This document shows, piece after piece, positions 14,072-63,725 of a stretch of DNA of 64,000 bases (position 1 is the first letter of the stretch; each line of letters begins with the position of its first letter). Source of the DNA: Spirochaetaceae bacterium bin103 (GTDB lineage: Bacteria > Spirochaetota > Spirochaetia > SZUA-6 > Bin103). The DNA lies in contig MPNH01000015.1 in the NCBI GenBank assembly GCA_002238925.1, positions 1-64,000 of the forward strand, in the 5' to 3' direction. Made by a program: the position numbers and the translations under genes. Under the pieces are notes generated by a model. The model was not told the DNA's origin. It saw only the letters and a list, made by a program, of their open reading frames with translations, and did not search any database.

Positions 14072-14503
14072 GTGCGAGCGGTTGACTTGGTGGGCACCTG
14101 GCGCCTGGTGTCGTGGGAGACGGTCTCCCCCGGCGGCGTCAGCCATCCCATGGGCCCCGGCGCCGTCGGCTACCTGTCGTACAACCGCGGCGGGCGGATG
14201 TCGGTGCAGGTAATGCGGCGGGAGCGCGGCGAACTGGCCGATGACGGTGTCATGAAGGCTTCCGCGGACCGGTTGCGCGTAGTGCTCGGCGGCTACCTCG
14301 CCTACGCCGGCAGCTACGAGGTGGACACCGCCGCGGGCACGGTAACCCATCGCATCGAGTGCGCGCTCCTGCCCGCCCAGGTGGACAGCGAACTGACACG
14401 CTGGTTCCAGGTCGACGGCGCCCGGCTCACCCTGCACCTGACCCCACCCGCGGCACCCGAATCCGGCACCGGCAGCCGCGTGACCTGGGAACGCATCGCA
14501 TAG
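14072..14503 (+). CDS. Lipocalin-like domain protein
   Basis: A 143-residue protein starting with GTG. DLVGTWRLVSWE at the N-terminus, GYLSYNRGGRMSVQVM in the middle and the closing RVTWERIA are typical of the lipocalin-like family (PF13924), small beta-barrels of unknown ligand. There is no signal peptide. The last base of its TAG stop is the first base of the sulfatase GTG start, so the two genes are coupled. Confidence 0.8.
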   Translation: MRAVDLVGTWRLVSWETVSPGGVSHPMGPGAVGYLSYNRGGRMSVQVMRRERGELADDGVMKASADRLRVVLGGYLAYAGSYEVDTAAGTVTHRIECALLPAQVDSELTRWFQVDGARLTLHLTPPAAPESGTGSRVTWERIA

Positions 14504-37887: not shown

Positions 37888-38907
37888 ATGAACGCCATTT
37901 CGAAGGACACGCCGCGTTCCATGCAGTTCGCGTATCGCGAATTGCTCACACCAGGAATGGCCGTGGCGTCGGGGGCCGTCGCGGCGTTCCTCCTGGCGCA
38001 CTACACTATCTTGGGCCCTTTGGGCACCAGCGGAACCATGAACTGGGTCGAGCGGCTGGGCTTTTGGGCGGCGGTCGGCGTGCTGCAGTATCCGGTGTGC
38101 TACGCGTCCGGCGCGTTGACGCTCTATATCGTGCGCAACCGTCCCAAGGTGCAGATCTGGATGGCGCTGATCGTCATGGTCTTGCTGCTGTCCGCATCAT
38201 GTTCCGCCATTGTGATCACCATTCACGGGCTGTTCAGCGCAGGACGCTGGCCGGAGATCCCGCTTCCGAAGCTGTATGGCCTGTGCGCACTCAATCTGTT
38301 CTCCGCGGTGGCTCTTCTGTATTACGTGTTCTGCGTTCGCCTCTCCGTCAGGCCGGGCACGGCGGCAGCCGCTGCTGACTCCTTGCCGACGGATTCCGAC
38401 GCTCGCAGCGTGGCCGCTCTGCCGGTTGTGGAGCCGGCGGCCGAGGAATCCCCGGCGGCGCGCGCCGCCCCCTTGCCCACCGCTCCACCTCAGGAAGCCG
38501 GCGCGGCGGCCGATGGGCGCGCCGGCGCGCAGGCGGCGAGCAGGTTCTTCGACCGCTTGCCCGACGAGATCGGACGCGACATCATCTACCTGTCGGCGGC
38601 CGCTCACTACGTGGACGTGATTACCGCAGACGGCAGCGCCTCGATCCTGTTGCGCTTCTCGGACGCGGTCTCGGAACTTGGCGAGCTGGGCATCAGGGTG
38701 CACCGCTCCTATTGGGTAGCGTACGGTCACGTCAAGCAGGCATTCCGGCGCGACGGGCGGACGATGCTGCGCCTTACCGGCGAGCACGAAGTGCGGGTTG
38801 GCCGCAACTTTCTTCCCGAGGTACGGGCCGCGGTGCCAAAGGCCTGGATCCGCGCGCGGCGGCGCGTCGTGCACGGCGCCGCGCCTACATCGAACACAAC
38901 GTCCTGA
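37888..38907 (+). CDS. Membrane LytTR-domain regulator, copy 1
   Basis: A 339-residue protein: four or so membrane segments in residues 25-160 (AVAAFLLAHYTILGP, AAVGVLQYPVCYASGALTLY, IWMALIVMVLLLSAS, LYYVFCVRLSV), an Ala/Pro/Glu-rich linker, and a C-terminal LytTR DNA-binding domain from about residue 235 (IIYLSAAAHYVDVITADGSA through LTGEHEVRVGRNFLPEVR). It is probably a membrane-embedded transcription regulator that binds direct repeats upstream of its targets. It is closely related to the protein at 42530-43564 (shared MQFAYRELL, TMNWxERLG, PVCYA). Confidence 0.88.
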   Translation: MNAISKDTPRSMQFAYRELLTPGMAVASGAVAAFLLAHYTILGPLGTSGTMNWVERLGFWAAVGVLQYPVCYASGALTLYIVRNRPKVQIWMALIVMVLLLSASCSAIVITIHGLFSAGRWPEIPLPKLYGLCALNLFSAVALLYYVFCVRLSVRPGTAAAAADSLPTDSDARSVAALPVVEPAAEESPAARAAPLPTAPPQEAGAAADGRAGAQAASRFFDRLPDEIGRDIIYLSAAAHYVDVITADGSASILLRFSDAVSELGELGIRVHRSYWVAYGHVKQAFRRDGRTMLRLTGEHEVRVGRNFLPEVRAAVPKAWIRARRRVVHGAAPTSNTTS

Positions 38908-42529: not shown

Positions 42530-43564
42530 TCAGCGGCCGCCCGCGGGCGCTTCCTTCGCCACCAGCCGCCTCGCGCGCACCCAGGCCTTCGGAACGGCGG
42601 CTCGTACCTCCGGGAGGTAGTTCCGTCCCACCCGCACCTCGTGATCACCGGTGAGCAAGAGCACAGGGCGCCCTTCGCGGCGCACCGCTCGTCGGACGTG
42701 GCGATATGCCACCCAGTACGAACGGTGCACGCGGATTCCGAGATCGCCGAGTTCGGCAACCGCATCGGAGAAGCGCAGGAGAATGGACGCACTGCCGGCC
42801 ATAGTGATCACATCCACATAGTGAGCAGACGCCGCAAGGTAGATGATGTCGCCACCCAATTCCTCCGGAAGGCGGTCGAAGAATCTCGCCGCCGCCGCCG
42901 GAGGCCCTTGTTGCGGACCGGCCGTTGCTGGCTGCTCCTCGATGTCGGCGGGCAACTTTGCCGCGCGCTCCCGCCCCGCTGCTCGTGCTTCTCCCGTCGC
43001 AATCCCCGTGTCCCCCGCGGCCGCCGCTTCGGCGCCGCCCGGCCGTTCCTCGCCGACCGCATCCACGGGAACTGCACGCTCCGCCGACCGCTTCCCGGAT
43101 ACACGCAGAAACATCACGTAGTAAACCAGGGCCGTTCCGCCCACGACATTCACGGCCGACAGGGCGTAGACCTTCGGCAACGACGCCTGTGGTAGCCCAC
43201 CCCCCGCGAACAGACCGTAGACTGTCAACGTGATCGCTGTGCACGACGCCGCCAGCAGCAACGCCATCACCGCCAGAGCCAGCGCGATTTCGTACTGACG
43301 CCGGTACCGGACGACGTACATCGCCAACACCCCGGTCGCATAACACACCGGGAAATTCAGCATGCCCACCAGGCCCCAGTACCCCAGCCGTTCGATCCAG
43401 TTCATTGTCCCACCGGTGCCCAGCGGGCCAAGGACCGTATACTGCAGAGTTATAAACAGGAGTATCCCGGCTCCCACCGCCCCCATACTCGGCGCCAGCA
43501 GTTCGCGATACGCGAATTGCATCGCCCCAGCGGCACCCATCGAGCCCGATTGCGTCATTTGCAC
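42530..43564 (-). CDS. Membrane LytTR-domain regulator, copy 2
   Basis: A 344-residue paralog of the protein at 37888-38907, with the same plan: membrane segments (ILLFITLQYTVLGP, LVGMLNFPVCYATGVLAMY, ALAVMALLLAASCTAITLTV, GTALVYYVMFL), a charged linker of about 70 residues and a C-terminal LytTR domain (IIYLAASAHYVDVITMAGSA through LTGDHEVRVGRNYLPEVR). The DNA-binding domains are nearly identical, so both probably recognise the same sites; the linkers have diverged. Its promoter block also matches that of copy 1. Confidence 0.88.
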   Translation of the reverse strand: MQMTQSGSMGAAGAMQFAYRELLAPSMGAVGAGILLFITLQYTVLGPLGTGGTMNWIERLGYWGLVGMLNFPVCYATGVLAMYVVRYRRQYEIALALAVMALLLAASCTAITLTVYGLFAGGGLPQASLPKVYALSAVNVVGGTALVYYVMFLRVSGKRSAERAVPVDAVGEERPGGAEAAAAGDTGIATGEARAAGRERAAKLPADIEEQPATAGPQQGPPAAAARFFDRLPEELGGDIIYLAASAHYVDVITMAGSASILLRFSDAVAELGDLGIRVHRSYWVAYRHVRRAVRREGRPVLLLTGDHEVRVGRNYLPEVRAAVPKAWVRARRLVAKEAPAGGR

Positions 43565-44169: not shown

Positions 44170-45054
44170 CTAGCCGGTGAGAAGGCTGCGGATTCGCTCC
44201 AGATCGTCAGCGTTGAAAAAGGCGATCTCGATCTTGCCGCGGCGTACGCTACCGGTGACCTTTACCTTGGTGCCGAGGACGTCGATGAGACGCTGCTGCA
44301 CCTCGCGCAGGTGCGGGTCGGTTTGCCGTTGCGGGCGAGTCTCGGGGCGGGCGCCCGCGCTCCCCGAATCGAGTTGCTTGCGAACCCGCACCGCGTATGC
44401 CTCCGCCTCGCGGACCGAATACTGCGCGATGTGCGCAAACAACCGCTGCCGCTCGGCTGGATCCGGGATCATGAGTATGGCGCGGGCGTGGCCCGCGGTG
44501 ATGGTGCCGTCCGACAGCGCGTTGCGCATTTCCTCCGGGAGCCCGAGCAGGCGCAGGCTGTTGGCAACGGTCGAGCGGTGCTTGCCGATCCGCTCGGCGA
44601 GGTCCGCCTGGCTGACGCCGGTCGCCTCAATGATCCGGCGGTAGGCATTCGCCTCTTCGAGGGGAGTGAGGTCTTCGCGCTGAATGTTCTCGACCAACGC
44701 CAGGGTAGTCCGGTCGTCGTCGTCCGGGTTCCGGATCGCCGCCGGTATGCGTTGCAGGCCAGCGCGCTGCGCGGCACGGAAGCGGCGCTCTCCGGCGATG
44801 ATCCGGTAGCGGTCGCCGATGCGCTCCACCAGGATCGGCTGCAACACGCCGTGGGCGGCGATCGACTGAGTCAGTTCGGCGAGTGGTTCCTCGTCGAAGC
44901 GGAGCCGCGGCTGTTCACCGTGGGTGTCGATTTCGGCGAGGGCGATCTCGGCGACGCCGCCGGTCAACGGAAAGTCGGGTTGATCGCCCATCAGGGCGCC
45001 AAGGCCGCGTCCCAACCCGCGTTTCGCAGGTGAGCGGGATGCTCGCTTAGCCAT
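44170..45054 (-). CDS. parB: Chromosome partitioning protein ParB
   Basis: A 294-residue ParB, the CTP-dependent clamp that loads at parS sites. I start at the ATG at 45054 (MAKRASRSPAKRGLGRGLGALMG). The CTP-binding region has LRFDEEPLAELTQSIAAHGV, then the GERRFRAA motif and ENIQREDLTPLEEA. The central helix-turn-helix is VSQADLAERIGKHRSTVANSL. The C-terminal dimerisation domain ends GKIEIAFFNADDLERI. Its start overlaps the parA stop by 8 bp. Confidence 0.95.
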   Translation of the reverse strand: MAKRASRSPAKRGLGRGLGALMGDQPDFPLTGGVAEIALAEIDTHGEQPRLRFDEEPLAELTQSIAAHGVLQPILVERIGDRYRIIAGERRFRAAQRAGLQRIPAAIRNPDDDDRTTLALVENIQREDLTPLEEANAYRRIIEATGVSQADLAERIGKHRSTVANSLRLLGLPEEMRNALSDGTITAGHARAILMIPDPAERQRLFAHIAQYSVREAEAYAVRVRKQLDSGSAGARPETRPQRQTDPHLREVQQRLIDVLGTKVKVTGSVRRGKIEIAFFNADDLERIRSLLTG

Positions 45055-45808
45055 GCTGCGCAACCTCCCGGGCGAGCGCGTTGTAGCTGCGCGCCCCGAT
45101 ACACTTGGGATCGTAGAGTTGAATCGGCTGCGAATAGGAGGGCGCCTCGCCAAGGCGGACGTTTCGCGGAATGATCGTGCGGAACACTTGGTGACGGAAG
45201 AACTCGGTAACTTCGCGCACCACTTCCTGGGACAGCCGAGTACGCACATCGAACATGGTGAACAAAATCCCGCCGACCGTTAGCGCCGGATTCAACGTTC
45301 CCTGTACGCGCCTGATCGTCTTCAACAGTTCACTCAACCCCTCGAGCGCGAAATATTCGCACTGCAAAGGAATTATCACCTGCGAAGCAGCCGTCAGGCC
45401 ATTGATCGTGAGGAGGCCCAGGGATGGCGGGCAGTCGATAAACAAATAATCGTACGCGGTGTCCAAATCGTTGAGGGCGTCGCTGAGGTAGAACTCCCGG
45501 CGCGACTGGTTGACCAGTTCGACGGCAGCGCCCGCCAAGTTGATGCTCGAGGGTACGACCTCGTAGCCGGGAACAGCCGTATGCTGAATAAGCTCCTCGG
45601 GAGGCAAGACGCCGGTAATCAATTCGTAGCTGCCGCCTTGCTCACCATCACATCCGAGGCTCGTCGACGAATTGGCCTGCGGGTCGAAGTCCACCAGCAG
45701 CACACGCTTCCCGGCCACGGCCAGCGCCGCGCCGAGATTGACGGCTGTTGTGGTCTTCCCTACACCGCCTTTCTGATTCGCAAAAACGATTCGCCGTGCC
45801 CGTGCCAT
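45047..45808 (-). CDS. parA: Chromosome partitioning ATPase ParA
   Basis: A ParA/Soj ATPase of about 253 residues. I start at the ATG at 45808 (MARARRIVFANQKGGVGKTT); in-frame starts at 45826 and 45832 are possible, and a longer frame to 46048 would read through the parS site. The deviant Walker A is KGGVGKTT, Walker A' is VLLVDFDPQANSS and Walker B is FIDCPPSLGLLTIN. It drives segregation of ParB-bound origins. Confidence 0.95.
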   Translation of the reverse strand: MARARRIVFANQKGGVGKTTTAVNLGAALAVAGKRVLLVDFDPQANSSTSLGCDGEQGGSYELITGVLPPEELIQHTAVPGYEVVPSSINLAGAAVELVNQSRREFYLSDALNDLDTAYDYLFIDCPPSLGLLTINGLTAASQVIIPLQCEYFALEGLSELLKTIRRVQGTLNPALTVGGILFTMFDVRTRLSQEVVREVTEFFRHQVFRTIIPRNVRLGEAPSYSQPIQLYDPKCIGARSYNALAREVAQHG

Positions 45809-45898
45809 TGAAACCGCTGCAACCATAGCCATGTTGGCCGCGACTGGCAAACGGATTGCTTCCGCCTGCCCACGCTTTTCCGGTTGCGGGCGCGTTTG

Positions 45899-45914
45899 CG
45901 TTTCACGTGAAACA
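45899..45914. promoter_or_regulatory. parS site adjacent to parA
   Basis: GTTTCACGTGAAAC at 45900-45913 is a perfect palindrome matching the parS consensus TGTTTCACGTGAAACA. It lies about 90 bp upstream of parA. Confidence 0.9.
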
Positions 45915-46048
45915 AGGACTGCACGGTTTCGGTTTCGCTCGGCGCCCGGTCCGGGAACGCTCATCCCTACGGCAGCGGTAGCTTCGCCGTCCGCGATGCA
46001 GTTGGCAGGGGCCGGGTCAGAGACCGCTGCCTCCGCTGCCCGCAGCAC

Positions 46049-48819: not shown

Positions 48820-51798
48820 TCAGGGCAGATTTAGCGGGATGGCGATGTCGGACTCAGGCTCCCGGTACACGCGGTAGGTCCACACCAGCGTATTGCCCTT
48901 CGACATGGGCATCTCCAGCAGAGAGGTACCGTTCGAAGGGTCGATTTCGCTGACCGCCGAGACCAATTCCGGGCTCGTGGTGACACCGCCTGGTCTGCCC
49001 CACGCGATCAACCAGCGGTCATCGCTGAGCACGGTGACCGCCCCGGCCGCGTCGGCAAAGCCCTGGCCGGCAGGCTGGTCATATTCGCGCACCCAGACAG
49101 CATGCGTTCCGGATGATATGTCGTACTCCACGACTCGCGTGGATTGCGCGTCCGCCTTCCTCGGTCCGAGACAGAACTCGCCGTTATCGAACAGCACGAC
49201 CTTCTCCTTGTTGCTGCTGTCTCGCCTCAGGGTCGCATGGTGCTGGCCACAGAACTCGCCCTCCCCATCGCCCTCGATCTCCAGATACTCGGTATTGGTG
49301 TTCGACTCTGCCAGTTGCTCGGAGCCACCGAGCTTCCACTTCACCACGCCAGTGGCTCCATCAATGCGCAACACCTGCGCACAGCCCCGAAACGAAGCCA
49401 CGATGTCCCCGTCGAACACCTGCAGAGAGTTCAGGTGTGCGTATTGGCCCGGGAACTCGCGCACCCGGCAATCCGGGTCGATTCGCAGGTGGTCCCAGGA
49501 GTTCCAGAGCAGCTCCTCCGCGCCGCTCGGGGTGACCTCGCGAATCAGCGAATCAGTGAATTCCTCGATCGTGTATGGATTCAACGGGTTGTCCCCTGCG
49601 CTGAGGTCACGGGTCGTATCCTTGCGCAGCGAAAACAGGAAGTTGCCGTCACCGGTGATCAAGAAATCATGATGGTCAACCGCCGCTCCCGCGAGTCCAC
49701 TCCGGACCGAGCGTATGACCGCGAAATCGCGGTCGAGCAATTCGACTGCGCCGCGCACATGTATTGAGTAGCGAACCTGCCGCCCATCGATGGTCGGCCC
49801 GTCGCGATGCAGCCGGAAGTTCCAGCCCAACCGGCGGCGATGAAATCTCGGCACCCCATTGTTGTCGACCACCACCATGTACACGTACTGTGGCCTCACC
49901 TCCACCCGCAGGTCCATCAGCAGGAGCCCCTCCGACACGCCCGCGCTCTTCGTGAGGATCTTGATATCGGGAAACTCGGGCGGCACGCAGTGAACCACGT
50001 AGCGCACCTCACTGCCGCCGCCGTCGCGCAGCTCGATCGCGATATCGTCGTTCTTGTCCACGTCGACCTGCACGTCGAGTGCGCCGACGGCGACCTCGTT
50101 GGCACTTGGGTTCGCGCGCAGCAGGTTCAGTTGCGCCGTGCTCCGCGTGGCCTCCGCCACCACCTGCAGCGCCGTCGCATCGGCGCAGGTCAGCGCGTAG
50201 TGGTAGGTGTCCGGCTCGAACGACGGATACATCGTGCCTCCTCCAGTCACCCGCAGCGTGCTCAGTTGCAGTGGCGTGTCGGCGTCATCGTCCGTAACCG
50301 TGCCGATTGCCGTGGCGCGGGTCACGCTCGCACCGGTTGCATTGCTCAACGTCACCGTGAAGGTCTCGGGCTGTTCCGCAGTCTCGTCGTCAACAATCGG
50401 CACCTCCACCGTCTGCTCCGTGCTGCCGGCAGCAAATGCCAAGCTGCCGCTCACCGCGGTGTAGTCCGCGACCGCCGTCGCGGTATCGTCGGCAGTCGCG
50501 TACATTACGGACACGTGCTGCCCGCTCGCCGGCTGCAGACTCACCGCGAACCTCATGCTGCCGTCTCCTTCCCTCAGGCTATCGTCTTCGATGCTCAGTT
50601 GCGGTTCCTCGTCGTCGTCCTCGATGATCCCCAGCACCGTCGCCGTTGCGCCGCCACCCGCCAGCGGCGCGTTCGCGTTCCGCACCGTCACTGTGAACTG
50701 CTCTTCCACCTCGTCCAGCTCGTCGTCCAGCACCTCAACAGAAATCGTCCGCGCCACCGTCGTGCCCGCAGGGAACCTCAGCGTCCCGCTCGTACTCCGG
50801 TAGTCTTCTCCCTCGCTAGCGCTGTCTTCCGCGCCGCCGCCGGTCTCGTACTCTGCCGTCACTTCCCGGTCCGCCGCCGCGCTTAGCGTCACCGCGAACG
50901 CCAGCCTCCCCGCCTGCTCCGTGCCGCGCGCACCGGCCACCGCCAGCGTCGCCACGTCCGCCTCAACGATCGTTACCTGCACCGCAGGCACCCGCGTACC
51001 GCCGTAGCCGCCGCCCGTGACCTCGTGGGTCACCTCTACCGGCTCCTCCGCCAGCGCATCCTCGTCACGCCCCGCGGTCACCGTGACCGTCTGCGCCTCC
51101 GCCCAACCGGCCGGCCTGAACTCAAGCCGCGCCGGCTCCACCGTCACTTCCGCGGAGCCCGCTGCCGCCGTCACCGTAACCGTTCCCCTCGGCCGCGACC
51201 GCAGCGCCACCAGGTATCCGGCGCTGTCCCCTTCCAACACGTTTAGCACCCTCGGCTCCACCCTCACCCCACGCCCGTCGTTGTCCGCCACCGTTACCGT
51301 CCCCTCTCCATCCGCAATCTGCGCGCCGTCTGCCGAGAGCAGCCGTACCGTGAAGCTCTCCTCGCCCTCAGCCTCCGCGTCGTCACGCACCTGCACCTCG
51401 ATCTGCCGCGCCCCCACGGCTCCGGCGGCGAACGTCAGCACGCCGCGCGCCGCCTGGTAGTCGGCTCCGGCCGTGGCGCTGCCATCCTCGGTGGCATACG
51501 ACACCGTTACCGGACCCGCCGCCGCCGGGTGCAGGCTCACCGTGACCCGTACCACGCCGTCCCCCTCCGCTCCCCTCGCGTCTGCTACCGACAGCCGCGG
51601 CACACCGGTGGCACCGCCGCCCGGTTCGCCATCCGGTCGCGTGGAGTGCCCGGGAGCCTCCTGTTCCTGGGCCTCGGACTGCGCGGGTACCCGAGATTGT
51701 GACAACTGGCAGGCCCCGAGCAGCACCGTCAGTACCAGCGCCGCCAGCGACAGCAGCACGCGGCCCGATGAGGCAATACAGCAACCCGTTCGTTCCAT
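48820..51798 (-). CDS. Calx-beta / arylsulfotransferase-type lipoprotein A
   Basis: A 992-residue lipoprotein starting at the ATG at 51798; the signal peptide ends in LLGAC with Cys30. Order of domains: Calx-beta repeat (about 62-165, ending GTVTVADNDG), a related beta-sandwich starting VEPRVLNVLEGDS (about 167-272), two more Calx-beta repeats (about 274-500, ending IIEDDDEE and TVTDDDAD), a cadherin-like beta-sandwich (LSTLRVTGGGTMYPSFEPDT, about 505-600), and a propeller related to arylsulfotransferase AssT (from VVDNNGVPRFH). Conserved histidines are in HHDFLITGDGN, YAHLNSL and FCGQHHATL. It ends IAIPLNLP. It should face the periplasm or cell surface. Sulfate transfer is possible but unproven. 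Confidence 0.85.
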   Translation of the reverse strand: MERTGCCIASSGRVLLSLAALVLTVLLGACQLSQSRVPAQSEAQEQEAPGHSTRPDGEPGGGATGVPRLSVADARGAEGDGVVRVTVSLHPAAAGPVTVSYATEDGSATAGADYQAARGVLTFAAGAVGARQIEVQVRDDAEAEGEESFTVRLLSADGAQIADGEGTVTVADNDGRGVRVEPRVLNVLEGDSAGYLVALRSRPRGTVTVTAAAGSAEVTVEPARLEFRPAGWAEAQTVTVTAGRDEDALAEEPVEVTHEVTGGGYGGTRVPAVQVTIVEADVATLAVAGARGTEQAGRLAFAVTLSAAADREVTAEYETGGGAEDSASEGEDYRSTSGTLRFPAGTTVARTISVEVLDDELDEVEEQFTVTVRNANAPLAGGGATATVLGIIEDDDEEPQLSIEDDSLREGDGSMRFAVSLQPASGQHVSVMYATADDTATAVADYTAVSGSLAFAAGSTEQTVEVPIVDDETAEQPETFTVTLSNATGASVTRATAIGTVTDDDADTPLQLSTLRVTGGGTMYPSFEPDTYHYALTCADATALQVVAEATRSTAQLNLLRANPSANEVAVGALDVQVDVDKNDDIAIELRDGGGSEVRYVVHCVPPEFPDIKILTKSAGVSEGLLLMDLRVEVRPQYVYMVVVDNNGVPRFHRRRLGWNFRLHRDGPTIDGRQVRYSIHVRGAVELLDRDFAVIRSVRSGLAGAAVDHHDFLITGDGNFLFSLRKDTTRDLSAGDNPLNPYTIEEFTDSLIREVTPSGAEELLWNSWDHLRIDPDCRVREFPGQYAHLNSLQVFDGDIVASFRGCAQVLRIDGATGVVKWKLGGSEQLAESNTNTEYLEIEGDGEGEFCGQHHATLRRDSSNKEKVVLFDNGEFCLGPRKADAQSTRVVEYDISSGTHAVWVREYDQPAGQGFADAAGAVTVLSDDRWLIAWGRPGGVTTSPELVSAVSEIDPSNGTSLLEMPMSKGNTLVWTYRVYREPESDIAIPLNLP

Positions 51799-52079
51799 CT
51801 CGTTCGACCTGACCTCGGTATCGCGGCGAGCGGTTGCGCCAGGCATGGGTCGTTGGAAACACGCCTGCCGCACACGCATGCACCGTGACCGATACTCTGC
51901 GTCGGAACGACCGGTCGGTTCAACTACCGTGCGCTCCGTACTCGCTCGGCCCCGGCCGCGTGCCGGAGACGGCGTGTCTTTGGGCGACACGGCTTGACTA
52001 CTTCCGGCATCCTGCGCAGTATCTGCGTCGATTGGGTTCGATCGAACCCGACGACCAGTTACAAGGCGGCAGGCTCGGT

Positions 52080-52685
52080 ATGGAACGGTACAGGCAGCTT
52101 GGAGGCCGCGCGCCCGCGGCATTGATCTACCTCACGGCGGCGGCATTGGTAACGATCCCGTTGCTGGTGAACGGCTGCGCCGCGGCTTCTTCGGTGTCGG
52201 AACCATTCAACCCCACAGTGCTGGTGATCTCGCCCGATGCCGCAACCGGGCCCGACTTCATCGCCCGCGACAGCATCGACGGCCCGGACGATGTCGACTA
52301 TTACCAGTTGGTGCTCGAACAGGCCTTCAATTCGGTGGTGATAATGACCGGCGGCGATACCGACACCGCCGGGCAGGTCGAGACGGAGGACCGTACGCCG
52401 ATTACCACGGAATGCATGGGCGAACGGCACGAGGCCACGCCACCGTGCGTCTGGGGGACTGATCCGGACATCGACACGCCCCACCCGCAGCGGTCCGCGA
52501 AATTCAACTCCATGGAGGCGTCGAAGAACTTCATCTGGGAGGGCAGCCTCGACGCGGGCACCTACTACATCAGGATAACGGGTCAGGACAATGCCACCGG
52601 ACCCTACGATCTCACGGTCGAATTGCACGACGCGGAGTGTCCGGGTACGGAGACCGATCCGTTCGGCTATTACTGCGCTAGTTGA
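52080..52685 (+). CDS. Small lipoprotein with PPC-like domain
   Basis: A 201-residue lipoprotein; the signal peptide ends in LLVNGC with Cys33. The rest is one acidic beta-sandwich: DSIDGPDDVDYYQLVLEQAF and GSLDAGTYYIRITGQDNATGPYDLTVEL are the pattern of bacterial pre-peptidase C-terminal (PPC) domains, which bind or present other surface molecules. It is divergent from lipoprotein A (281 bp apart) and its TGA ends one base before the ATG of lipoprotein B, so the two are co-transcribed and perhaps partners. Confidence 0.8.
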   Translation: MERYRQLGGRAPAALIYLTAAALVTIPLLVNGCAAASSVSEPFNPTVLVISPDAATGPDFIARDSIDGPDDVDYYQLVLEQAFNSVVIMTGGDTDTAGQVETEDRTPITTECMGERHEATPPCVWGTDPDIDTPHPQRSAKFNSMEASKNFIWEGSLDAGTYYIRITGQDNATGPYDLTVELHDAECPGTETDPFGYYCAS

Positions 52686-54269
52686 ATGCCCGGTCGATCG
52701 TCTGCGCCTGCAACCCGGTGTCGTCTTGTCACGGTCCTGTGTGCCGTTGGCGCCATGCTTGTCCTCGGCGGATGCCGGGGCCCGGGCGCCGTCCCGGAGA
52801 CTCGGGCGCGGCTGAGCGAGTTGCAGGCGACGGGCGCCGGACCGATGTACCCGGCCTTCGATCCCGGGGTGCTGCACTACGCGGTTCGCTGCGCGGACGG
52901 AACCACCGTGCAGTTGGCGGCGCGGGCGGCGGATGCGGATGCGACCCTCCGGTTGCTGCACGACGGCAGTACCGGCACCGGCTCGCTGGCCGCGTCGATA
53001 ACCCTGAACAGAGACCTCGACATCGACATCGCGATCCAGGTCGGCGATAGCCCGGCCGCCGCCACCTACGTCGTACACTGCATCCCGCCCGACTTCCCGG
53101 ACATCGTCATCGAGACATCCACCGCCGGGGTGTCCGACGGCCTGTTGCTGATGACGCCGGGCGTGCGCGGCTCCGACAAGTCGTTCCTGGCCATCGTCGA
53201 CAACAATGGCGTGCCGCGCTGGGTGATGCGGCCGAATCAACGCGCGCGCAACTTCCGGCGCCATCCCGACGGCCGCTACTCGTTCTCCGAGCAGCGGCAA
53301 GCCGACGGGGAAGCGTCCGTGGAACCGACAGTGATCCTGGACGCCAGGTTCAGGAGGATCGACACGGCCACCCTGGCCGGCGACCGGTTGCCGGAACACA
53401 CCGGCGGGCATGACTTCCTCATCCTGGACAACGGCAATTACCTGGTGATGTCCTACTACCCGGTGCAACGCGATTTCAGCGCGTTCGAGTGCGACGGCGA
53501 GCCATGTTCGGTGCCGCCAGGCACGGCGACCGACTCCGTGATCCAGGAGGTTACCCCGGACGGGAATCTGGTGCTGGAGTGGAACTCCTGGGAGCACGTC
53601 AAGATCGAGGACTGCACCATCCATCGTTTTCCGGAGGACTACGCGCACCTCAACTCGCTGCACGAACTGGAGGGGGACATCGTGGCCGGGTTGCGCGGCT
53701 GCGCGCAGGTGCTGCTCCTGGAACGTGCCACCGGCGCCGTGGTGTGGCAGATGGGCGGCGATCCGGCCATCCGCACCGACCGGCCGGCGCCGTCCACCGG
53801 GGCCGCCCGCTACCTGCCGGTAGTGGGCGACCCGGAGGGCGAATTCTGCGGCCAGCACCACGTCACCGCGACCGCGGCCGGGTCGGTGCTGATGTTCGAC
53901 AATGGCACCCACTGCCTGGGGCCGCGCAAGGACAGGCCGGCGGTCACCCGCATCGTCGAATACGACATTTCATCCGGCACCGAGGCGCGCTTCGCGAGGG
54001 AATACCGGCTCGCGGAATCGATCGGCCATGCCTTTTCGGGCGGCGGGGTGACGGCCCTGGAGACCGGCAACTGGCTGATCACCTGGGGCAACAACTTCCG
54101 GGGCCCAAACGGTGCCATGGTGCCGACCCCGTTCGCGGTGAGCGAGGTGGACACCCGCGGCAACGAGATCTTTCGCCTGCGCATGACGCTCAATGGCGAA
54201 CAGTACGGGACCGGGCGCGTATACCGGGAGCGGGAGAGCGACCTCCAAATTCCCCTGAACCTGCCGTAG
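52686..54269 (+). CDS. Arylsulfotransferase-type lipoprotein B (no Calx-beta)
   Basis: A 527-residue lipoprotein with lipobox LVLGGC (Cys30). It goes straight into the cadherin-like beta-sandwich (LSELQATGAGPMYPAFDPGV) and the AssT-like propeller (FLAIVDNNGVPRWV, GGHDFLILDNGNYL, WNSWEHVKIEDC, YAHLNSLHELEGDIVAGLRG, FCGQHHVTA), and ends LQIPLNLP. It lacks the Calx-beta stalk of its three paralogs, so it is the minimal version of the family. It starts one base after the PPC-like lipoprotein and its stop abuts that of paralog C. Confidence 0.87.
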   Translation: MPGRSSAPATRCRLVTVLCAVGAMLVLGGCRGPGAVPETRARLSELQATGAGPMYPAFDPGVLHYAVRCADGTTVQLAARAADADATLRLLHDGSTGTGSLAASITLNRDLDIDIAIQVGDSPAAATYVVHCIPPDFPDIVIETSTAGVSDGLLLMTPGVRGSDKSFLAIVDNNGVPRWVMRPNQRARNFRRHPDGRYSFSEQRQADGEASVEPTVILDARFRRIDTATLAGDRLPEHTGGHDFLILDNGNYLVMSYYPVQRDFSAFECDGEPCSVPPGTATDSVIQEVTPDGNLVLEWNSWEHVKIEDCTIHRFPEDYAHLNSLHELEGDIVAGLRGCAQVLLLERATGAVVWQMGGDPAIRTDRPAPSTGAARYLPVVGDPEGEFCGQHHVTATAAGSVLMFDNGTHCLGPRKDRPAVTRIVEYDISSGTEARFAREYRLAESIGHAFSGGGVTALETGNWLITWGNNFRGPNGAMVPTPFAVSEVDTRGNEIFRLRMTLNGEQYGTGRVYRERESDLQIPLNLP

Positions 54270-57200
54270 CTAAGGAAGATTCAACGGTATTTCGATGCCG
54301 GACACCCGGTACGCGCGATACGTAAAGGCGCGCCGCGATTCCGGGATCGATACCGAGGCGAGTTCCAGGACCGGCGTACCGCTATTCGGGTCGACCTCGC
54401 TGATGGCGAGGAGCTTGCCGAGCGGTTTCGTTTCATTCACGAGCGTGCCCCAGGCGATCAACCAGTGGCCATTGGCCAACGACACCACACCACCCCGCGT
54501 ATTCGAAGAACCGTTGCCAGGCGGCAGCAGGTACTGGCGCCGGAAGCGGGCTTCCTTCGGTGTCCCGGACGTCAGCAGGCGGTACTCCACGACGCGCGTA
54601 AACTTTGCCAGATCCTTTCTCGGGCCCTTGCATTTGTGGCCGTTGTCAAACACCAGCAACGATCCCGATGAGGTCAACGTTGCGCTGTGCTGGCCGCAGA
54701 ATTCGTTTCTGCCGTCGGTGTCGCCGGTGATCGCAAGGTTCTGGGTCGCGGTGTCGCGGGGTGGCGCCGTGCCACCCACCTGCCAGACCAACCGGCCGGT
54801 TCCTCCCGACCGGTCAATCCTCACTACCATGTTGCAGTGCCTGAACGAAGCGACGATGTCGCCGTCTGCCAGGTGCAGGGAGTTGAGGTGAGCGTAGTCG
54901 TTGCCGAACACGAACCGGCAGTCGGAGAGTTTCAAGTGGTCCCAGGAATTCCACTCGAACACCTTCTCGCCGGCCGGCGTCGTTTCCTGGATCCACGAGT
55001 CGGTAACCGTCCCGATGTCCTCGGTGCCCGGTTCGCAACCGGACACCTCGCATCTGTCGCGGGTCGCATCGACGTAGCCGATGAAGAGATAGTTGCCGGT
55101 CTCGGTAATGAGAAAATCGTGAGGATCGGAACTCGACAAGGGAGGCACGGGCCGCACGACTTTGGTGTACTCAAGCTGCCGGTCGTGCAGGTGCACGTCG
55201 TTGCCGGCGTGCACGGAGTATCGGCCGTCGCCGAATCTTCTGAAGTTCCTTGCCCCGTCGGCCTTCCTCAAGTGGAACCGCGGTACGCCGTTGTTGTCGA
55301 CGATCGCCATGTATGACTTTTTCGGGTCCGCCGCGTCCCATTTCGGCGTCACGAGAAGCAGGCCGTCACTGACTTCCGGACGCTTGCTGAGTACCCCGAA
55401 CCATGGGAGCGCCAGGGGCGCGCAGTGAACGACATAGGTCACGGTGTCGTCCGCATCGCCGAGTTCGAGGACGATATCGTGATCGTCGGCCACCGTTAGT
55501 TGTGTGGCCGGCAGGCTCCCGGTGGCTACCAGGTCGTCGTCGGAGTTGGCGCGCCGCAGGGTAACGGATGTGTTGGCGCCCGCGGCCGTGGCGCTCACGC
55601 TGACCGTCGACCTCTGGGTGCACCTCACGGCGTAATGATGGATATCGCCGTCGAAGGCGGGGTACATGCTGCGCGAGCCGGACGTGACCGAGAGCGCACT
55701 CAGCTCGAGCGGCGCCTCGTCACTCACGATCGTGCCGGTTGCCGTGGCCACGGACACGCCCGCACCACTTGCGTTGCTCAGCGTCACGGTGAAATACTCC
55801 GGCAATTCCGCCTCCTGGTCGTCCACGACGGCGACGGCGATCGTCTGTACCGTAGTGCCGGCGGGGAAGGTCAGCGCACCGTTCGCGGCGGTATAATCTG
55901 CGCCGGCGGTCGCCGTGTCGTCGGCTGTCGCGTAGTCCACCGTGACCGCGCCGCTGCTCGCCGGTTGCAGGGTCACCGTGAACCGCATGCTGCCATCCAC
56001 CATCTCGCCGGCGGTCGCGTCCGCGATGTCCAGCCGCGGCGCCTCGTCGTCATCCTCAATCGTGCCGGTTGCGGTGCGGCGGGCGGACGCCAGGGTCGCG
56101 TTCACGGCGCCGCTCAAGGTCACCGTGAACTCCTCCGGCGCCTCGTCGATCCGGTCGTCGGTCACCGGCACCGCAATCGTCCGCTCACTGCTGCCGGCGG
56201 GGAAGGTCAGCATGCCGCTCACTGCCTCATAGTCCGCGCCGGCCGTGGCGGTGTCGTCGGCCGTCGCATAGGCCACGGCCACCGTGCGTCCGCTTACCGG
56301 CTGCAGGGCCACCGCGAACCGCACGCTTGCGGCCGTCGCGGCCTCGCTCGCGGTCGCATCCGCGATGCTCAGTTGCGGTGGCGCATCGTCATCCTCAATG
56401 GTGCCGTACACTGCCATCGTCTGCTCGCCGCCGGCCAGCGGCGCGCCGGCGTTGCGCAGCGTCACCGTGAACCGTTCCTCCGGCTCGTCCAGCTCGTCGT
56501 CGAGCACCACCACGTCGATCGTGCGCGCCCTCGTCGTGCCGGCCGTGAAGCTCAGCGTGCCGCTCGCGCCCCGGTAATCCTCTCCCGCGCTGGCACCGTC
56601 ATCGCCGGTCGCGTACTCCACCGTCACGTCCCGGGCCGCCGCGGCGCTCAACGTCACCGCGAACCGCAGGCTGCCCGCCTGCTCGCTGCCGCGCACCCCG
56701 GCCACCGCCAGCGTGGCCACGTCGGCCTCCACGATCGTCACCCGTATCGCCGGCGCCGCCGCACCGTCGTAGCCGCCGCCGGCGACCGCGTGCGTCACCT
56801 GCGCCGGTTCGTCGGCCACCGCATCCTCATCCGCCGCCGCCGTGACGGTGACCGTCTGGGCCGCAGCCCAATCGCCCGGCGGGAACTCCAGCACCCGCGG
56901 CGCCACCGTGACTTCCGCCAGCCCCGCCGTGGCCGTCACCGTGACCGTCCCGGTCGGGCGTGAGCCAAGCGCCACCCGGTAGCTGGCGCTGCCCCCTTCC
57001 GGCAAGGTTATCGCACGTGGCTCGACCGTGACCCGGGGTACGTCGTTGTCGGCCACGGTCACTGTCGCCTGTGCCGCGGCCACCGCGGCACCTGCCACCT
57101 CGCCGAGCCGCACCAGGAAGCTTTCCTCCCCTTCTGCTATCGCGTCGTCGTGCACCACCACCTCGATGTGTTGCACCCCGGCCGCTCCGGCGGCGAAGGT

Positions 57201-57635
57201 CAGCACGCCGCTCGCCGCTTGGTAATCGGCGCCGGCCGTGGCGCTGCCGTTTGCCGTCGCATAGGCCGCGGTCACCGGTCTATCCGCGGCCGGACTCAGG
57301 CGCACCGGTACGCGCAGCACCCCGTCGCCCTCCGCACCTCTCGCCACCGCCACCGCCACCATGGGCGCGCCGTTCGCCGGCCCTGCCATCCCGCGGCCCG
57401 GCGCCGCGGCCTGCTCGTGAGCGTTCGGGTCAGAGGCGGACTCGGACTGCGGGGGCGGCTGGCTACCGGGCATCCGGCACGCCGCCGCCGCCAACACCAA
57501 GCAGAGCGCCAACAGCTCGCGCGCGCGCAACGAACGGCGGCAGACTGCCGAGCGCCGCCGCGATGTTTGCCGGTGGCAATTGTGCAGAGGCTGCGCACCG
57601 ACAAGCCTCCTTGTGAACCGACGAGAAACCGACAC
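54270..57635 (-). CDS. Calx-beta / arylsulfotransferase-type lipoprotein C
   Basis: About 1120 residues, with lipobox LAAAAC. Domains in order: Calx-beta, a related beta-sandwich (VEPRAITLPEGGSASYRVAL), three further Calx-beta repeats each ending near DDD or SDE, cadherin-like sandwich (LSALSVTSGSRSMYPAFDGD), AssT-like propeller (MAIVDNNGVPRFHLR, PHDFLITETGN, YAHLNSLHLADGDIVASFRH, FCGQHSATL) and IEIPLNLP at the end. The start is uncertain: GTG at 57635, TTG at 57530, and a good AAGGAGG (complement of 57604-57610) that precedes a GTG in a different frame, hinting at a sequence error. A TATATT box lies near 57645. Its stop abuts that of lipoprotein B. Confidence 0.82.
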   Translation of the reverse strand: MSVSRRFTRRLVGAQPLHNCHRQTSRRRSAVCRRSLRARELLALCLVLAAAACRMPGSQPPPQSESASDPNAHEQAAAPGRGMAGPANGAPMVAVAVARGAEGDGVLRVPVRLSPAADRPVTAAYATANGSATAGADYQAASGVLTFAAGAAGVQHIEVVVHDDAIAEGEESFLVRLGEVAGAAVAAAQATVTVADNDVPRVTVEPRAITLPEGGSASYRVALGSRPTGTVTVTATAGLAEVTVAPRVLEFPPGDWAAAQTVTVTAAADEDAVADEPAQVTHAVAGGGYDGAAAPAIRVTIVEADVATLAVAGVRGSEQAGSLRFAVTLSAAAARDVTVEYATGDDGASAGEDYRGASGTLSFTAGTTRARTIDVVVLDDELDEPEERFTVTLRNAGAPLAGGEQTMAVYGTIEDDDAPPQLSIADATASEAATAASVRFAVALQPVSGRTVAVAYATADDTATAGADYEAVSGMLTFPAGSSERTIAVPVTDDRIDEAPEEFTVTLSGAVNATLASARRTATGTIEDDDEAPRLDIADATAGEMVDGSMRFTVTLQPASSGAVTVDYATADDTATAGADYTAANGALTFPAGTTVQTIAVAVVDDQEAELPEYFTVTLSNASGAGVSVATATGTIVSDEAPLELSALSVTSGSRSMYPAFDGDIHHYAVRCTQRSTVSVSATAAGANTSVTLRRANSDDDLVATGSLPATQLTVADDHDIVLELGDADDTVTYVVHCAPLALPWFGVLSKRPEVSDGLLLVTPKWDAADPKKSYMAIVDNNGVPRFHLRKADGARNFRRFGDGRYSVHAGNDVHLHDRQLEYTKVVRPVPPLSSSDPHDFLITETGNYLFIGYVDATRDRCEVSGCEPGTEDIGTVTDSWIQETTPAGEKVFEWNSWDHLKLSDCRFVFGNDYAHLNSLHLADGDIVASFRHCNMVVRIDRSGGTGRLVWQVGGTAPPRDTATQNLAITGDTDGRNEFCGQHSATLTSSGSLLVFDNGHKCKGPRKDLAKFTRVVEYRLLTSGTPKEARFRRQYLLPPGNGSSNTRGGVVSLANGHWLIAWGTLVNETKPLGKLLAISEVDPNSGTPVLELASVSIPESRRAFTYRAYRVSGIEIPLNLP

Positions 57636-57782
57636 CAGAACCCAATATACGACGCGGTATGCGGTTTTTGAATAATCATACGGGATAGTCGGGCGCGGGG
57701 TGCAGTACCGCTTGCCGCGCGTGAGCAAGCCCCGAGGCGAGCCGCCTGCGCCACCGGTGCCGCACCAAGAGCTTGTCGGAAG

Positions 57783-60700
57783 TCAGGGAAGATTCGGCGG
57801 GATCTCGATGCCGGACTCTCGATACGCGCGGTAGGTGTAGGCGGAGAGTCTGCCGTCGCTCGAACGCATGGCGATTTCCTGCACCGGGGTTCCCGTGGCC
57901 GGATCAATTTCGCTGATGGCGAGCAGGTCGCTCGGCGAGTGCGTGGCGCTGGTGAGGGTGCCCCAGGCGACCAACCAGTGGCCGTTGGGCAACGTAACCA
58001 CGCTGCCGCGCGTGCTCGCGTAACCGTTGCCGTCCGGCAGCAAATACTGGCGCCGGAACCGTGCTTCCAGCGGCGAGCCGGACGTCATCAGCTGGTACTC
58101 GACGACGCGTGAGAACGCCTTCTCGTTGTTTCGCTCACCCCTGCACAGATTGCCGTTATCGAAAATCAACAGCGCGCCGGAGTCGCTCAAGGTAGCGCTG
58201 TGTTGGCCGCAGAATTCGTTGTGGCCGGCGGTATCGCCGGAAATCGGCAGGTACAGAGTGTCGGAATCGCGGGGTGGAGCGGTGCCGCCGACCTGCCACA
58301 CGACGCGGCCGGTGCCGCCGGAGCGGTCGATCCTGACCACGGTGTTGCAATGCCTGAACGATGCGATGATGTCGCCCGTCTCTGTCAGGTGCAGGGAATT
58401 GAGGTGAGCGTAGTCGGCCGGGAACACGAACTCGCAATCGGAGAGTTTCAGGTGGTCCCAGGAATTCCACTCGAACACCTTGTCACCGGCAGGCGTCACT
58501 TCCTGGATCCAGGCGTCGGTGACTTTGCCGATCTCCTCGGTGCCCGGATCGCAACCGGTAACCTCACACCGGTCGCGGGTTGCACCGAGGTAGCTGGTGA
58601 AGAGATGGTTGCCGTTCCCGGTGATGAGAAAGTCGTGGGGGTTCGCACTCTTCAGGGGCGGCACCGGTTTCACCGCCTCGATGAACTGAAGTGAGCTGTC
58701 GAGCAGATGCACTTCGCCGCCGACGTAATAGGAGTAGCGGCCGTCAGCGTGTCGTCGGAAGTTCCTCGTCGCGTCCCTGGTCAGGTGGAACCGAGGTACG
58801 CCGTTGTTGTCGACAATTGCCACATATGAGTTGGCGGGACGCGACACGCGCCATCTCGGTGTCACGAGCAGCAGACCGTCGCTGGCTTCGGGGCGCTCGG
58901 TGAGAATCTCGAAGTTCGGAAACGAGACGGGCACGCAGTGGACGCTATAGGTCACGGCGCTGTCGGCGTCGCTGACCTCGACAACGAGGTGGGCGTCGGA
59001 GTCCACGCGGAGTTTGGTGGACAGGGAACCGGTGGTCACGAGGTTGTCGGCTGGGTCGGCGCGGCGCAGCGTCAGGGTGGCGGTGGGGCGCATGGCGGTG
59101 GCGGTAACGGTAACCGGATAGGTGCGGGTGCAAGCGCGCACGGCGTAGTGATGGATATCGGGGTCGAAGGCGGGGAAGATCTGGCGCGAGCCGGGCCCCG
59201 CCGAGAACGCGCTCAGCTTGAGAGGGAACAGGTCGTCGCTCACGATGAGGCCGGATGCGGTGCCGCCGGCGAGGCGGGCGCCGGTAGGATTGCTGAGCGC
59301 TACGGTGAAGGATTCGGTGTCTTCGACCGTATCGTCGTCGGCAATCGGGACGGCAACCGTCCGTGCCGTCGTGCCGGGGGCAAAGGTCAGGCTGCCGGTC
59401 ACCGCGGTGTAGTCTTCTCCGGCGGTGGCGGTGGCGTCGGAGGTCGCGTACGCGACGGCCACCGGGCGCTCGCTGACCGGGTGCAGGGACACCGTGAACC
59501 GCATGTTGCCGTCTGCGTCGCCCTCGGTGAGGCGGGCGCCGGCTATGCTCAACTGCGGGGGCTCGTCGTTGTCGACGATGGTGCCGGTCGCGGCACGGCC
59601 GGTCGCCGCGAGCGTCGCGTTCACGGCGGCGCTGAGCGTCAGGGTGAATTGTTCCTGGTCTTCGTGGACATCGTCGTCGGCCACCGGCACCGCGACGGTG
59701 TGCCCGGTGCTGCCGGCGGCGAACGTCAGGGTTCCGCTGGCCGACTCGTAGTCTGCTGATTCGGTCGCGCTGCCGGCGGTCGTCGCATAGGCAACGGTCA
59801 CCTGGCGACCGCTCGCCGGCAGCAGGGACACCGCAAACCGGATGCGGCCGTCCGCCGCGCCCTCCTGAAGGCTGGCGGCGGCGACGCTCAGCAGTGGGGG
59901 CTCGTCGTCGTCGACAATGGTGCCGGGGACGGTGGCCCGGGCGGCGGCCCCCCCCAGCGGGGGCCGGGGGCCCGTGCGGGCCCGGCCCGCGAGCGGGGCG
60001 TTGGCGCCGTGCAGGCGCAGCGCGAACTGTTCGTCCGCCTCGTCCGTCCCGTCGTCCACCAGCACCACCTCTATGGTGTGCGCCGCCGTGGCGCCGGCCG
60101 GAAAGCGCAGCGTGCCGCGTACGCCCCGGTAATCTTCGCCCTCCGCAGCGCTGTCTTCGGCTCCGCCACCGGTCTCGTATTCCGCCGTGACGACGCGGTC
60201 CGCGGCCGCGCTCAGGGTCACCGCGAAGCCGAGCCGGTCGACATGCTCGGCGCCGCGTGCGCCGGCTACGGCCAGCGTCGCCACGTCCGCTTCCACGATG
60301 GTCAACCGCACCGCGGGCACCGCTGTGCCGCCGTAGCCCCCGCCGCTGGCCGTGTGCGTCAGTTGCACCGGCGCGTCGGCCACGGCATCCTCGTCCGCCG
60401 CCGCGGTAACGGTCACGGAGCGCGCAGTGTCCCACTCGGTCGCTGAGAACGTCAGCCGCGCCGGCGCCACCGTCACCTCCGCCGACCCCGAGGCGGGCGT
60501 CACCGTCACGGTCCCGGTCGGTTGCGAGCCGAGCGCGACCAGGTAGGCGGCCCTGCCGCCTTCCGGCACGTTCAGTGCCAGTGGCTGCACGCTCACCCGG
60601 CGGCCGTCGTTGTCAACCACGGTGACGGTCGCCACGGCGACCGCCACCGCGGCGCCGGCCGCCTCGCTCAGGTGCACGCTGAATGTCTCATCGCCCTCGG

Positions 60701-61145
60701 CCACCGCGTCGTCCAATACCGGTACCTCGATGCGCGCGGCGCCGATCGCACCAGCGGCGAAAGTCAACACGCCGGTCGCCGGCTGGTAGTCAGCGCCGGC
60801 GGTGGCGGTGACGTCTTCGGTGGCATACGAAACGGTCACCGGCACGGCGGCCGCGGGACTCAGGCGCACGGGAATGTGCAGCATGCCGTCGCCCTCGGTG
60901 CCTGTCGCGTCCCCCACCGCCAGCGCCGGTACCGCCGGTGCGCCGGCCGAGGGCACCGCGGAGTCGGTGGCGGCCGGAGAAACCGGGTCGGCGGTCGGCG
61001 GAGCCGGCGACGGTACAATCGCCATGCGGCAGGCGGCCGGGGCCAGCACGACAAGTGCCGCCAGCAGCCGGATGGTGCGCGCCGGCGGACGCCCGTGGAC
61101 GCGGCGCACATTCGGAGCGTTGGCGAACATCCCCGCGAACTGCAC
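57783..61145 (-). CDS. Calx-beta / arylsulfotransferase-type lipoprotein D
   Basis: A 1120-residue lipoprotein with lipobox LAPAAC (Cys39). Domains in order: Calx-beta (GDATGTEGDGMLHIPVRLSP), a related beta-sandwich (VQPLALNVPEGGRAAYLVAL), three Calx-beta repeats, cadherin-like sandwich (LSAFSAGPGSRQIFPAFDPD), AssT-like propeller (VAIVDNNGVPRFHLT, PHDFLITGNGNHLF, YAHLNSLHLTETGDIIASFR, FCGQHSATL), ending IEIPPNLP. The third beta domain has 12 extra residues at about 59949-60000 from an in-frame duplication that looks artefactual. It is the closest relative of lipoprotein C and lies tandem upstream of it. Confidence 0.85.
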   Translation of the reverse strand: MQFAGMFANAPNVRRVHGRPPARTIRLLAALVVLAPAACRMAIVPSPAPPTADPVSPAATDSAVPSAGAPAVPALAVGDATGTEGDGMLHIPVRLSPAAAVPVTVSYATEDVTATAGADYQPATGVLTFAAGAIGAARIEVPVLDDAVAEGDETFSVHLSEAAGAAVAVAVATVTVVDNDGRRVSVQPLALNVPEGGRAAYLVALGSQPTGTVTVTPASGSAEVTVAPARLTFSATEWDTARSVTVTAAADEDAVADAPVQLTHTASGGGYGGTAVPAVRLTIVEADVATLAVAGARGAEHVDRLGFAVTLSAAADRVVTAEYETGGGAEDSAAEGEDYRGVRGTLRFPAGATAAHTIEVVLVDDGTDEADEQFALRLHGANAPLAGRARTGPRPPLGGAAARATVPGTIVDDDEPPLLSVAAASLQEGAADGRIRFAVSLLPASGRQVTVAYATTAGSATESADYESASGTLTFAAGSTGHTVAVPVADDDVHEDQEQFTLTLSAAVNATLAATGRAATGTIVDNDEPPQLSIAGARLTEGDADGNMRFTVSLHPVSERPVAVAYATSDATATAGEDYTAVTGSLTFAPGTTARTVAVPIADDDTVEDTESFTVALSNPTGARLAGGTASGLIVSDDLFPLKLSAFSAGPGSRQIFPAFDPDIHHYAVRACTRTYPVTVTATAMRPTATLTLRRADPADNLVTTGSLSTKLRVDSDAHLVVEVSDADSAVTYSVHCVPVSFPNFEILTERPEASDGLLLVTPRWRVSRPANSYVAIVDNNGVPRFHLTRDATRNFRRHADGRYSYYVGGEVHLLDSSLQFIEAVKPVPPLKSANPHDFLITGNGNHLFTSYLGATRDRCEVTGCDPGTEEIGKVTDAWIQEVTPAGDKVFEWNSWDHLKLSDCEFVFPADYAHLNSLHLTETGDIIASFRHCNTVVRIDRSGGTGRVVWQVGGTAPPRDSDTLYLPISGDTAGHNEFCGQHSATLSDSGALLIFDNGNLCRGERNNEKAFSRVVEYQLMTSGSPLEARFRRQYLLPDGNGYASTRGSVVTLPNGHWLVAWGTLTSATHSPSDLLAISEIDPATGTPVQEIAMRSSDGRLSAYTYRAYRESGIEIPPNLP
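59949..60000. repeat. 36-bp duplication, one copy G/C-altered
   Basis: AGCGGGG occurs at 59956-59962 and 59992-59998. The lower copy is flanked by long C and G runs where the paralogs have mixed sequence. The 36-bp offset keeps the frame of lipoprotein D. Confidence 0.6.

Positions 61146-61274: not shown

Positions 61275-63725
<2,451 letters not shown>

Follow-up and report, generated by a model that had tools for sequence, protein, structure and literature searches.

An arylsulfotransferase-type family of predicted lipoproteins with Calx-beta stalks of graded length in the spirochaete bin103

Layout of the four-gene cluster

We analysed a window of 64,000 nucleotides from the genome of Spirochaetaceae bacterium bin103 (4.78 Mb in 96 contigs, G+C 67%). 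This genome (MPNH00000000, taxid 1919263, Spirochaetae) comes from the sponge Aplysina aerophoba (PMC5649159), and the organism is probably a sponge-dwelling spirochaete. No SSU rRNA gene was found in the assembly, though most bins of that study carry one, so there was no 16S typing. An earlier note, made from the window's letters, had described a run of paralogous lipoproteins with an arylsulfotransferase (AssT) module and conserved HDFLI, YAHLNSL and FCGQH motifs. We recovered all four genes, here W1 to W4, with the three motifs in every protein and with matches to PF05935 and PF14269 above the cut-off in each. Their coordinates are given below, where X is a beta-sandwich that is not Calx-beta.

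14359-15918, plus strand: type I sulfatase with the C-x-P-x-R motif CVPSR; the open reading frame starts upstream of the likely true start
48820-52122 (probable gene 48820-51798), minus strand: W1, AssT paralog, from the open reading frame list and profile search; signal peptide with Cys138 (LLGAC), Calx-beta, X, two Calx-beta, cadherin-like domain, AssT propeller
50272-51600, minus strand: W1 stalk; Calx-beta 51277-51600, X 50956-51276, Calx-beta 50608-50955, Calx-beta 50272-50607
48820-50271, minus strand: W1 head (cadherin-like domain and AssT), ending in IPLNLP; in open reading frame numbering, His818 (HDF), His896 (YAHLNSL) and His961 (FCGQH)
52080-52685, plus strand: small lipoprotein, 201 amino acids, no Pfam family, immediately upstream of W2
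52686-54269, plus strand: W2, AssT paralog, 527 amino acids, stalkless; signal with Cys30 (VLGGC), cadherin-like domain 52812-53093, AssT propeller 53094-54266; catalytic positions His242, His321, Asn323, Arg337 and His391
54270-57728, minus strand: W3, AssT paralog, open reading frame of 1152 amino acids, Cys84 (AAAAC); Calx-beta, X, three Calx-beta, cadherin-like domain, AssT, IPLNLP; the frame opens at TTG, and the real start may lie downstream of it
55710-57365, minus strand: W3 stalk; Calx-beta 57042-57365, X 56721-57041, Calx-beta 56382-56720, 56043-56381 and 55710-56042
54270-55709, minus strand: W3 head (cadherin-like domain and AssT)
57783-61145, minus strand: W4, AssT paralog, 1120 amino acids, Cys39 (LAPAAC); Calx-beta, X, three Calx-beta, cadherin-like domain, AssT, IPPNLP
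59223-60929, minus strand: W4 stalk; Calx-beta 60606-60929, X 60285-60605, Calx-beta 59901-60284, 59562-59900 and 59223-59561
57783-59222, minus strand: W4 head (cadherin-like domain, PF12733 at 27.3 bits, and AssT)

The signal peptide of W1 begins at codon 109 of its open reading frame (51798), which is probably the true start, so W1 and the divergent gene beginning at 52080 are probably free of overlap. Genes for ParB, ParA and gyrase/topoisomerase A flank the cluster (44170-45249, 45047-46048, 61275-63725 (-)), and a replication origin may therefore be near. Elsewhere in the window, the proteins encoded at 37888-38907 (+) and 42530-43564 (-) have similar N-terminal sequences, and the former contains a LytTR domain.

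The ATG of W2 directly follows the stop codon of the small lipoprotein gene. In the sister species of the same genus (G002), one homolog of the small lipoprotein (L035 6085-6681; 57% in the part that matched, 52% by BLASTP) lies directly upstream of the W2 ortholog, and a second (C90:39232-39777, 66%) precedes a truncated AssT remnant just as directly; the remaining 19 genomes searched gave no homolog. The conservation of this two-gene unit in the sister species suggests that the small lipoprotein is a partner of W2. A PPC-like identity, suggested by its sequence, was dropped, as there was no Pfam match.

Catalytic residues, fold and C-terminus of the head

The four proteins scored 49-82 bits with PF05935 (cut-off 24.2) and 37-57 with PF14269 (cut-off 27). 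The cadherin-like domain passed its Pfam cut-off only in W4, and the region could be aligned in all four. When the PDB was searched with a profile of nine heads, the closest match was Streptomyces Cpz4 (9kf4/9kf6; E 6e-19), a PAPS-independent enzyme of the caprazamycin pathway, and the AssT of E. coli CFT073 (3elq) was matched at E 2e-5. On the alignment, where the E. coli numbering was counted and compared with the active-site list of PMC13426309, His356 and Asn358 fall in YAHLNSL, Arg374 in FRxC (ASFR) and His436, the residue sulfated during catalysis (PMC13426309), in FCGQH. The direct alignment with the E. coli enzyme does not begin until residue 352, and the His252 position was assigned to the His of HDF through Cpz4 and other AssTs. 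Thr501, another active-site residue of E. coli AssT, is not invariant in the family; the alignment shifts between runs at this position, and the nearest residue is Gly in both the window proteins and Cpz4.

All five aligned catalytic positions (His252, His356, Asn358, Arg374 and His436) are kept in W1 to W4 and in 13 of 16 family members, and those of His252, Asn358 and His436 in 19 of 19 aligned sequences. The departures are His356 to Asp in paralog C37, Arg374 to Lys in paralog C23 and His356 to Phe in the sister-species copy C90, so some heads may not be enzymes; sister-species C50 is changed solely at the Gln that precedes the nucleophile. Head identity within the genus is 41-69%, with paralog pairs mostly at 41-56%. 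The ratio dN/dS was 0.33-0.38 for six head pairs (NG86, a rough estimate in view of G+C bias), and by this sequence comparison the heads are under purifying selection.

The residue pattern bears on whether the heads turn over substrate at all. They could instead be lectins or adhesins that bind sulfate esters, presented by the Calx-beta stalk to sulfated host glycans or phenols. Stalked lipoproteins do look like adhesins, sponge-symbiont metagenomes show an enrichment of Calx-beta domains (PMC9531527), and the three variant heads have each lost or changed a catalytic residue. A pure binder would have no need of a nucleophilic His, yet most members retain the complete set, including the His that is sulfated in the E. 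coli enzyme, and selection has kept the heads conserved. We therefore regard binding without turnover as unlikely, and favour with moderate confidence, on predicted activity, that the family consists of active, lipid-anchored, PAPS-independent sulfotransferases.

Structure prediction, which the earlier note had proposed as a check, bore out the assignment of the head. A model of W2 lacking the signal peptide, built from five sequences, reached pTM 0.80 and pLDDT 75, and its best Foldseek match was Cpz4 (E 6e-17, TM 0.57/0.60). The model of mature W4, also from five sequences, was poorer (pTM 0.46, pLDDT 63); it matched E. coli AssT (~6e-14, TM 0.54 by target length, ~575 columns) and the Calx-beta pair CBD12 of NCX1 (2e-13). 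Two very long ciliary proteins ranked above these for W4 and were disregarded (TM ~0.1). Against Cpz4 and 3elq the models gave TM 0.53-0.61 by target length, which points to a predicted head made of a beta-sandwich followed by a six-bladed propeller. As for the AssT active-site geometry, whose absence the note took as fatal to its reading, the catalytic residues and the modelled fold agree with the solved enzymes, and the answer is given by these and not by distances.

Cpz4 is the closest solved structure by both sequence and fold and has the HD, YxHxN, R and QH motifs in common with the window heads. Unlike the window proteins, it is the product of a single gene in an antibiotic pathway, has no Calx-beta stalk and lacks the Cys of FRxC, FCGQH and DNGxxC. 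The E. coli enzyme (PF05935) resembles the heads in its N-terminal beta-sandwich, six-bladed propeller and four aligned residues, but it is a stalkless periplasmic homodimer with ~16% identity in the structural match to a window protein. It has one disulfide, located elsewhere, depends on DsbL/DsbI and is encoded with dsbL/dsbI; neither a Dsb gene nor a donor-producing gene was seen beside W1 to W4. Conserved Cys typical of the window subfamily occur in DC, FRxC, FCGQH and DNGxxC and as a pair in the cadherin-like domain, which suggests disulfides; the propeller Cys of this set are absent from Cpz4 and from plasmid AssTs. One of these, the plasmid arylsulfotransferase of Rubrobacter tropicus (WP_166180601.1), belongs to the family of the window heads at 24-27% identity and keeps the catalytic positions, but has no Calx-beta, IPLNLP or extra Cys.

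The nearly identical last residues are also as first described, with IPLNLP in three window proteins and IPPNLP in one. The note had suggested that this strict C-terminus could serve in sorting or partner binding. As such a signal it could define the family, and the tail does stand at the very end of 9 of the 10 full copies in the genome, once as IPPNLP. That role was not borne out. In paralog C37 nine residues (TVAEIVAMN) follow IPLNLP, the sister-species tails include LPLNLP, LPLRLP and LQPNFPAAP, and in a Binatota-labelled relative (L014) the motif is internal and is followed directly by a Calx-beta domain. Moreover, the tail falls where the propeller ends, and the Rubrobacter relative has FPWKGLPKDRP at this position. 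A sorting or docking signal is thus very improbable; the motif marks the end of the AssT module, and the near-identity of the tails reflects common descent of one module (paralogs about 42-69% identical) and not convergence.

Stalk, membrane anchor and distribution of the family

A Pfam profile search found three Calx-beta (PF03160) matches in W1, none in W2 and four each in W3 and W4. With the single X sandwich, which is second in order in each stalked protein, the totals are 4, 0, 5 and 5, in agreement with the counts of the earlier note (four or five sandwiches, three or four of them Calx-beta, in three proteins and none in the other). The stalked proteins follow the order Calx-X-Calx-Calx-(Calx)-cadherin-like-AssT. 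Over the whole genome the copies form a length series, with 4 sandwiches in W1, 0 in W2, 5 in W3, 5 in W4, 5 in C59, 4 in C23, 5 in C85, 3 in C41, 1 in C37 and 5 in C53; the sister species has 0, 1, 0, 0 and 4, so that three of its five copies are without a stalk. The proposed relation to the Ca-binding domains of Na/Ca exchangers (NCX1 CBD12, 3us9; CALX, 3rb7) was upheld by the PF03160 profile, by matches to Calx-beta chains in the PDB and by the W4 model, and the acidic positions of Calx-beta are kept in an alignment of the stalk repeats. In contrast to the exchanger domains, these repeats would form an extracytoplasmic tandem stalk on a bacterial lipoprotein, with Ca2+ binding predicted. 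The genome contains 62 Calx-beta matches, many of them in long open reading frames (up to 2587 aa) outside the AssT family, and contigs with further matches include C31, C11, C71, C73 and C4.

The N-terminal signals are of lipoprotein type, as noted at first sight. Read by eye, complete members in the genus have a hydrophobic stretch and a Cys; the lipobox is typical in W1 (LLGAC) and W2 (LGGC) and atypical in W3 (AAAAC) and W4 (PAAC). The genome has no LpxC and one Omp85, and is thus probably that of a diderm without standard lipid A. From the lipobox pattern and the Omp85, the heads are probably placed at the outer membrane or surface. Alternatively, these could be ordinary inward-facing periplasmic AssTs that serve phenol detoxification or sulfate recycling and use water or small phenols as acceptors; the stalk would then be a mere spacer and host molecules would not be involved. 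The studied enzymes, such as that of E. coli, are indeed periplasmic and act on small phenols (PMC13426309), and W2 and most of the sister-species copies have no stalk. Periplasmic AssTs leave unexplained both the Calx-beta series and the ten lipid-anchored copies, and the co-expanded sulfatases described below suggest large sulfated substrates; we consider an inward-facing role quite unlikely. Surface exposure and host targets are themselves held with less confidence than active, lipid-anchored sulfotransferases.

The cluster is part of a larger set: the four genes lie together, as the note had it, but account for only 4 of 10 full AssT copies in the genome, which also has one remnant. The sister species has 5 copies and 1 remnant. 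No family copy was found in a third species of the genus (81% complete), the sister genus has distant AssTs only, and samples of 395 class genomes and 393 phylum genomes gave weak matches only. A scan of named genomes with two peptide patterns, by which distant relatives can be missed, returned one relative, on a contig of 4,981 bases that carries the label Candidatus Binatota, possibly through transfer between bacteria or mis-binning. In its protein (L014 2-3643), Calx-beta domains flank the AssT module on both sides, and more domains follow towards the C-terminus. The search of other genomes that had been proposed thus yielded relatives combining AssT and Calx-beta in the sister species and in the Binatota-labelled contig; that IPLNLP is strictly terminal did not stand. 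The sister species has partners of W2 and C59 with heads 65-69% identical to theirs, and W3 and W4, with heads 66% identical, look like a local duplicate pair. Truncated AssT remnants (C26:137853-138044 in the window's genome, C90:38742-39110 in the sister species) indicate that copies have also been lost. A mobile or viral origin was considered and rejected, with no relative confirmed in viral contigs and plasmid AssTs only 25-30% identical.

Sulfatases and the proposed function

The earlier note had linked the cluster to the sulfatase at 14.5 kb. The local link is ruled out, since the gene is 33 kb away and unlinked, and only the genome-wide count is informative: there are 75 PF00884 matches, or ~70 genes allowing for split ones. 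Among 31 relatives, the window's genome and that of the sister species clearly lead in sulfatase number, the rest having 0-22. At this level the link to sulfate chemistry stands, and bin103 has been placed in a guild rich in arylsulfatase A, for which use of sulfated polysaccharides was proposed (PMC5649159). The main text of that study mentions neither sulfotransferases nor Calx-beta.

The mechanism that we propose follows from the domain order and from the solved enzymes. After export, the lipobox Cys would fix the N-terminus to a membrane, most likely the outer one, and a stalk of 0-4 Calx-beta domains and 0-2 related sandwiches would project the head from it to a variable distance, with the cadherin-like domain joining the stalk to the six-bladed propeller. 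An aromatic sulfate ester would donate its sulfuryl group to the His of FCGQH; the His of HDF, the His and Asn of YAHLNSL and the Arg of FRxC would bind the group, which would then be handed to a hydroxyl acceptor in a ping-pong reaction. Cpz4 prefers a sugar hydroxyl (PMC13426309), making glycan acceptors plausible for the window heads. The ten diverged copies may differ in substrate and reach, and the spirochaete probably lives within a sponge matrix in which sulfate esters abound; there the enzymes would work alongside the sulfatases. More tentatively, and as a proposal we ourselves find doubtful, a sponge symbiont may use tethered sulfotransferases on graded stalks stiffened by Ca2+, together with its ~70 sulfatases, to rewrite, outside the cell, how glycans of the sponge matrix or phenolic metabolites are sulfated.

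What PAPS-independent aryl sulfotransferases do in nature has yet to be settled (PMC13426309). Ten lineage-restricted, predicted lipid-anchored copies, carried by a genome whose sulfatase set ranks with one other as the largest of the relatives examined, would tie such an enzyme to extracellular sulfate-ester chemistry. The family also offers defined proteins for experiment: the stalkless W2, the stalked W3 and W4, and the natural active-site variants C37, C23 and sister-species C90. Taken singly, the catalytic family, the Calx-beta repeats and an expansion of AssT genes are already known. The review PMC13426309 reports 17 putative AST genes in Sutterella wadsworthensis, a large one-genome expansion like that of bin103, so expansion alone is not new; there the genes are grouped with E. 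coli AssT and Calx-beta is not mentioned. What appears undescribed is the pairing of AssT heads with Calx-beta stalks of graded length, within a family almost confined to one genus. The architecture was unfamiliar to the earlier note, and in the literature searched, which left out most subscription journals, we likewise found no paper that names arylsulfotransferase together with Calx-beta, nor one on arylsulfotransferase with sponge and symbiont. An independent link between sulfatase and AssT occurs in Rubrobacter tropicus (L049 1-2907), where a sulfatase gene overlaps the arylsulfotransferase gene by 4 bases.
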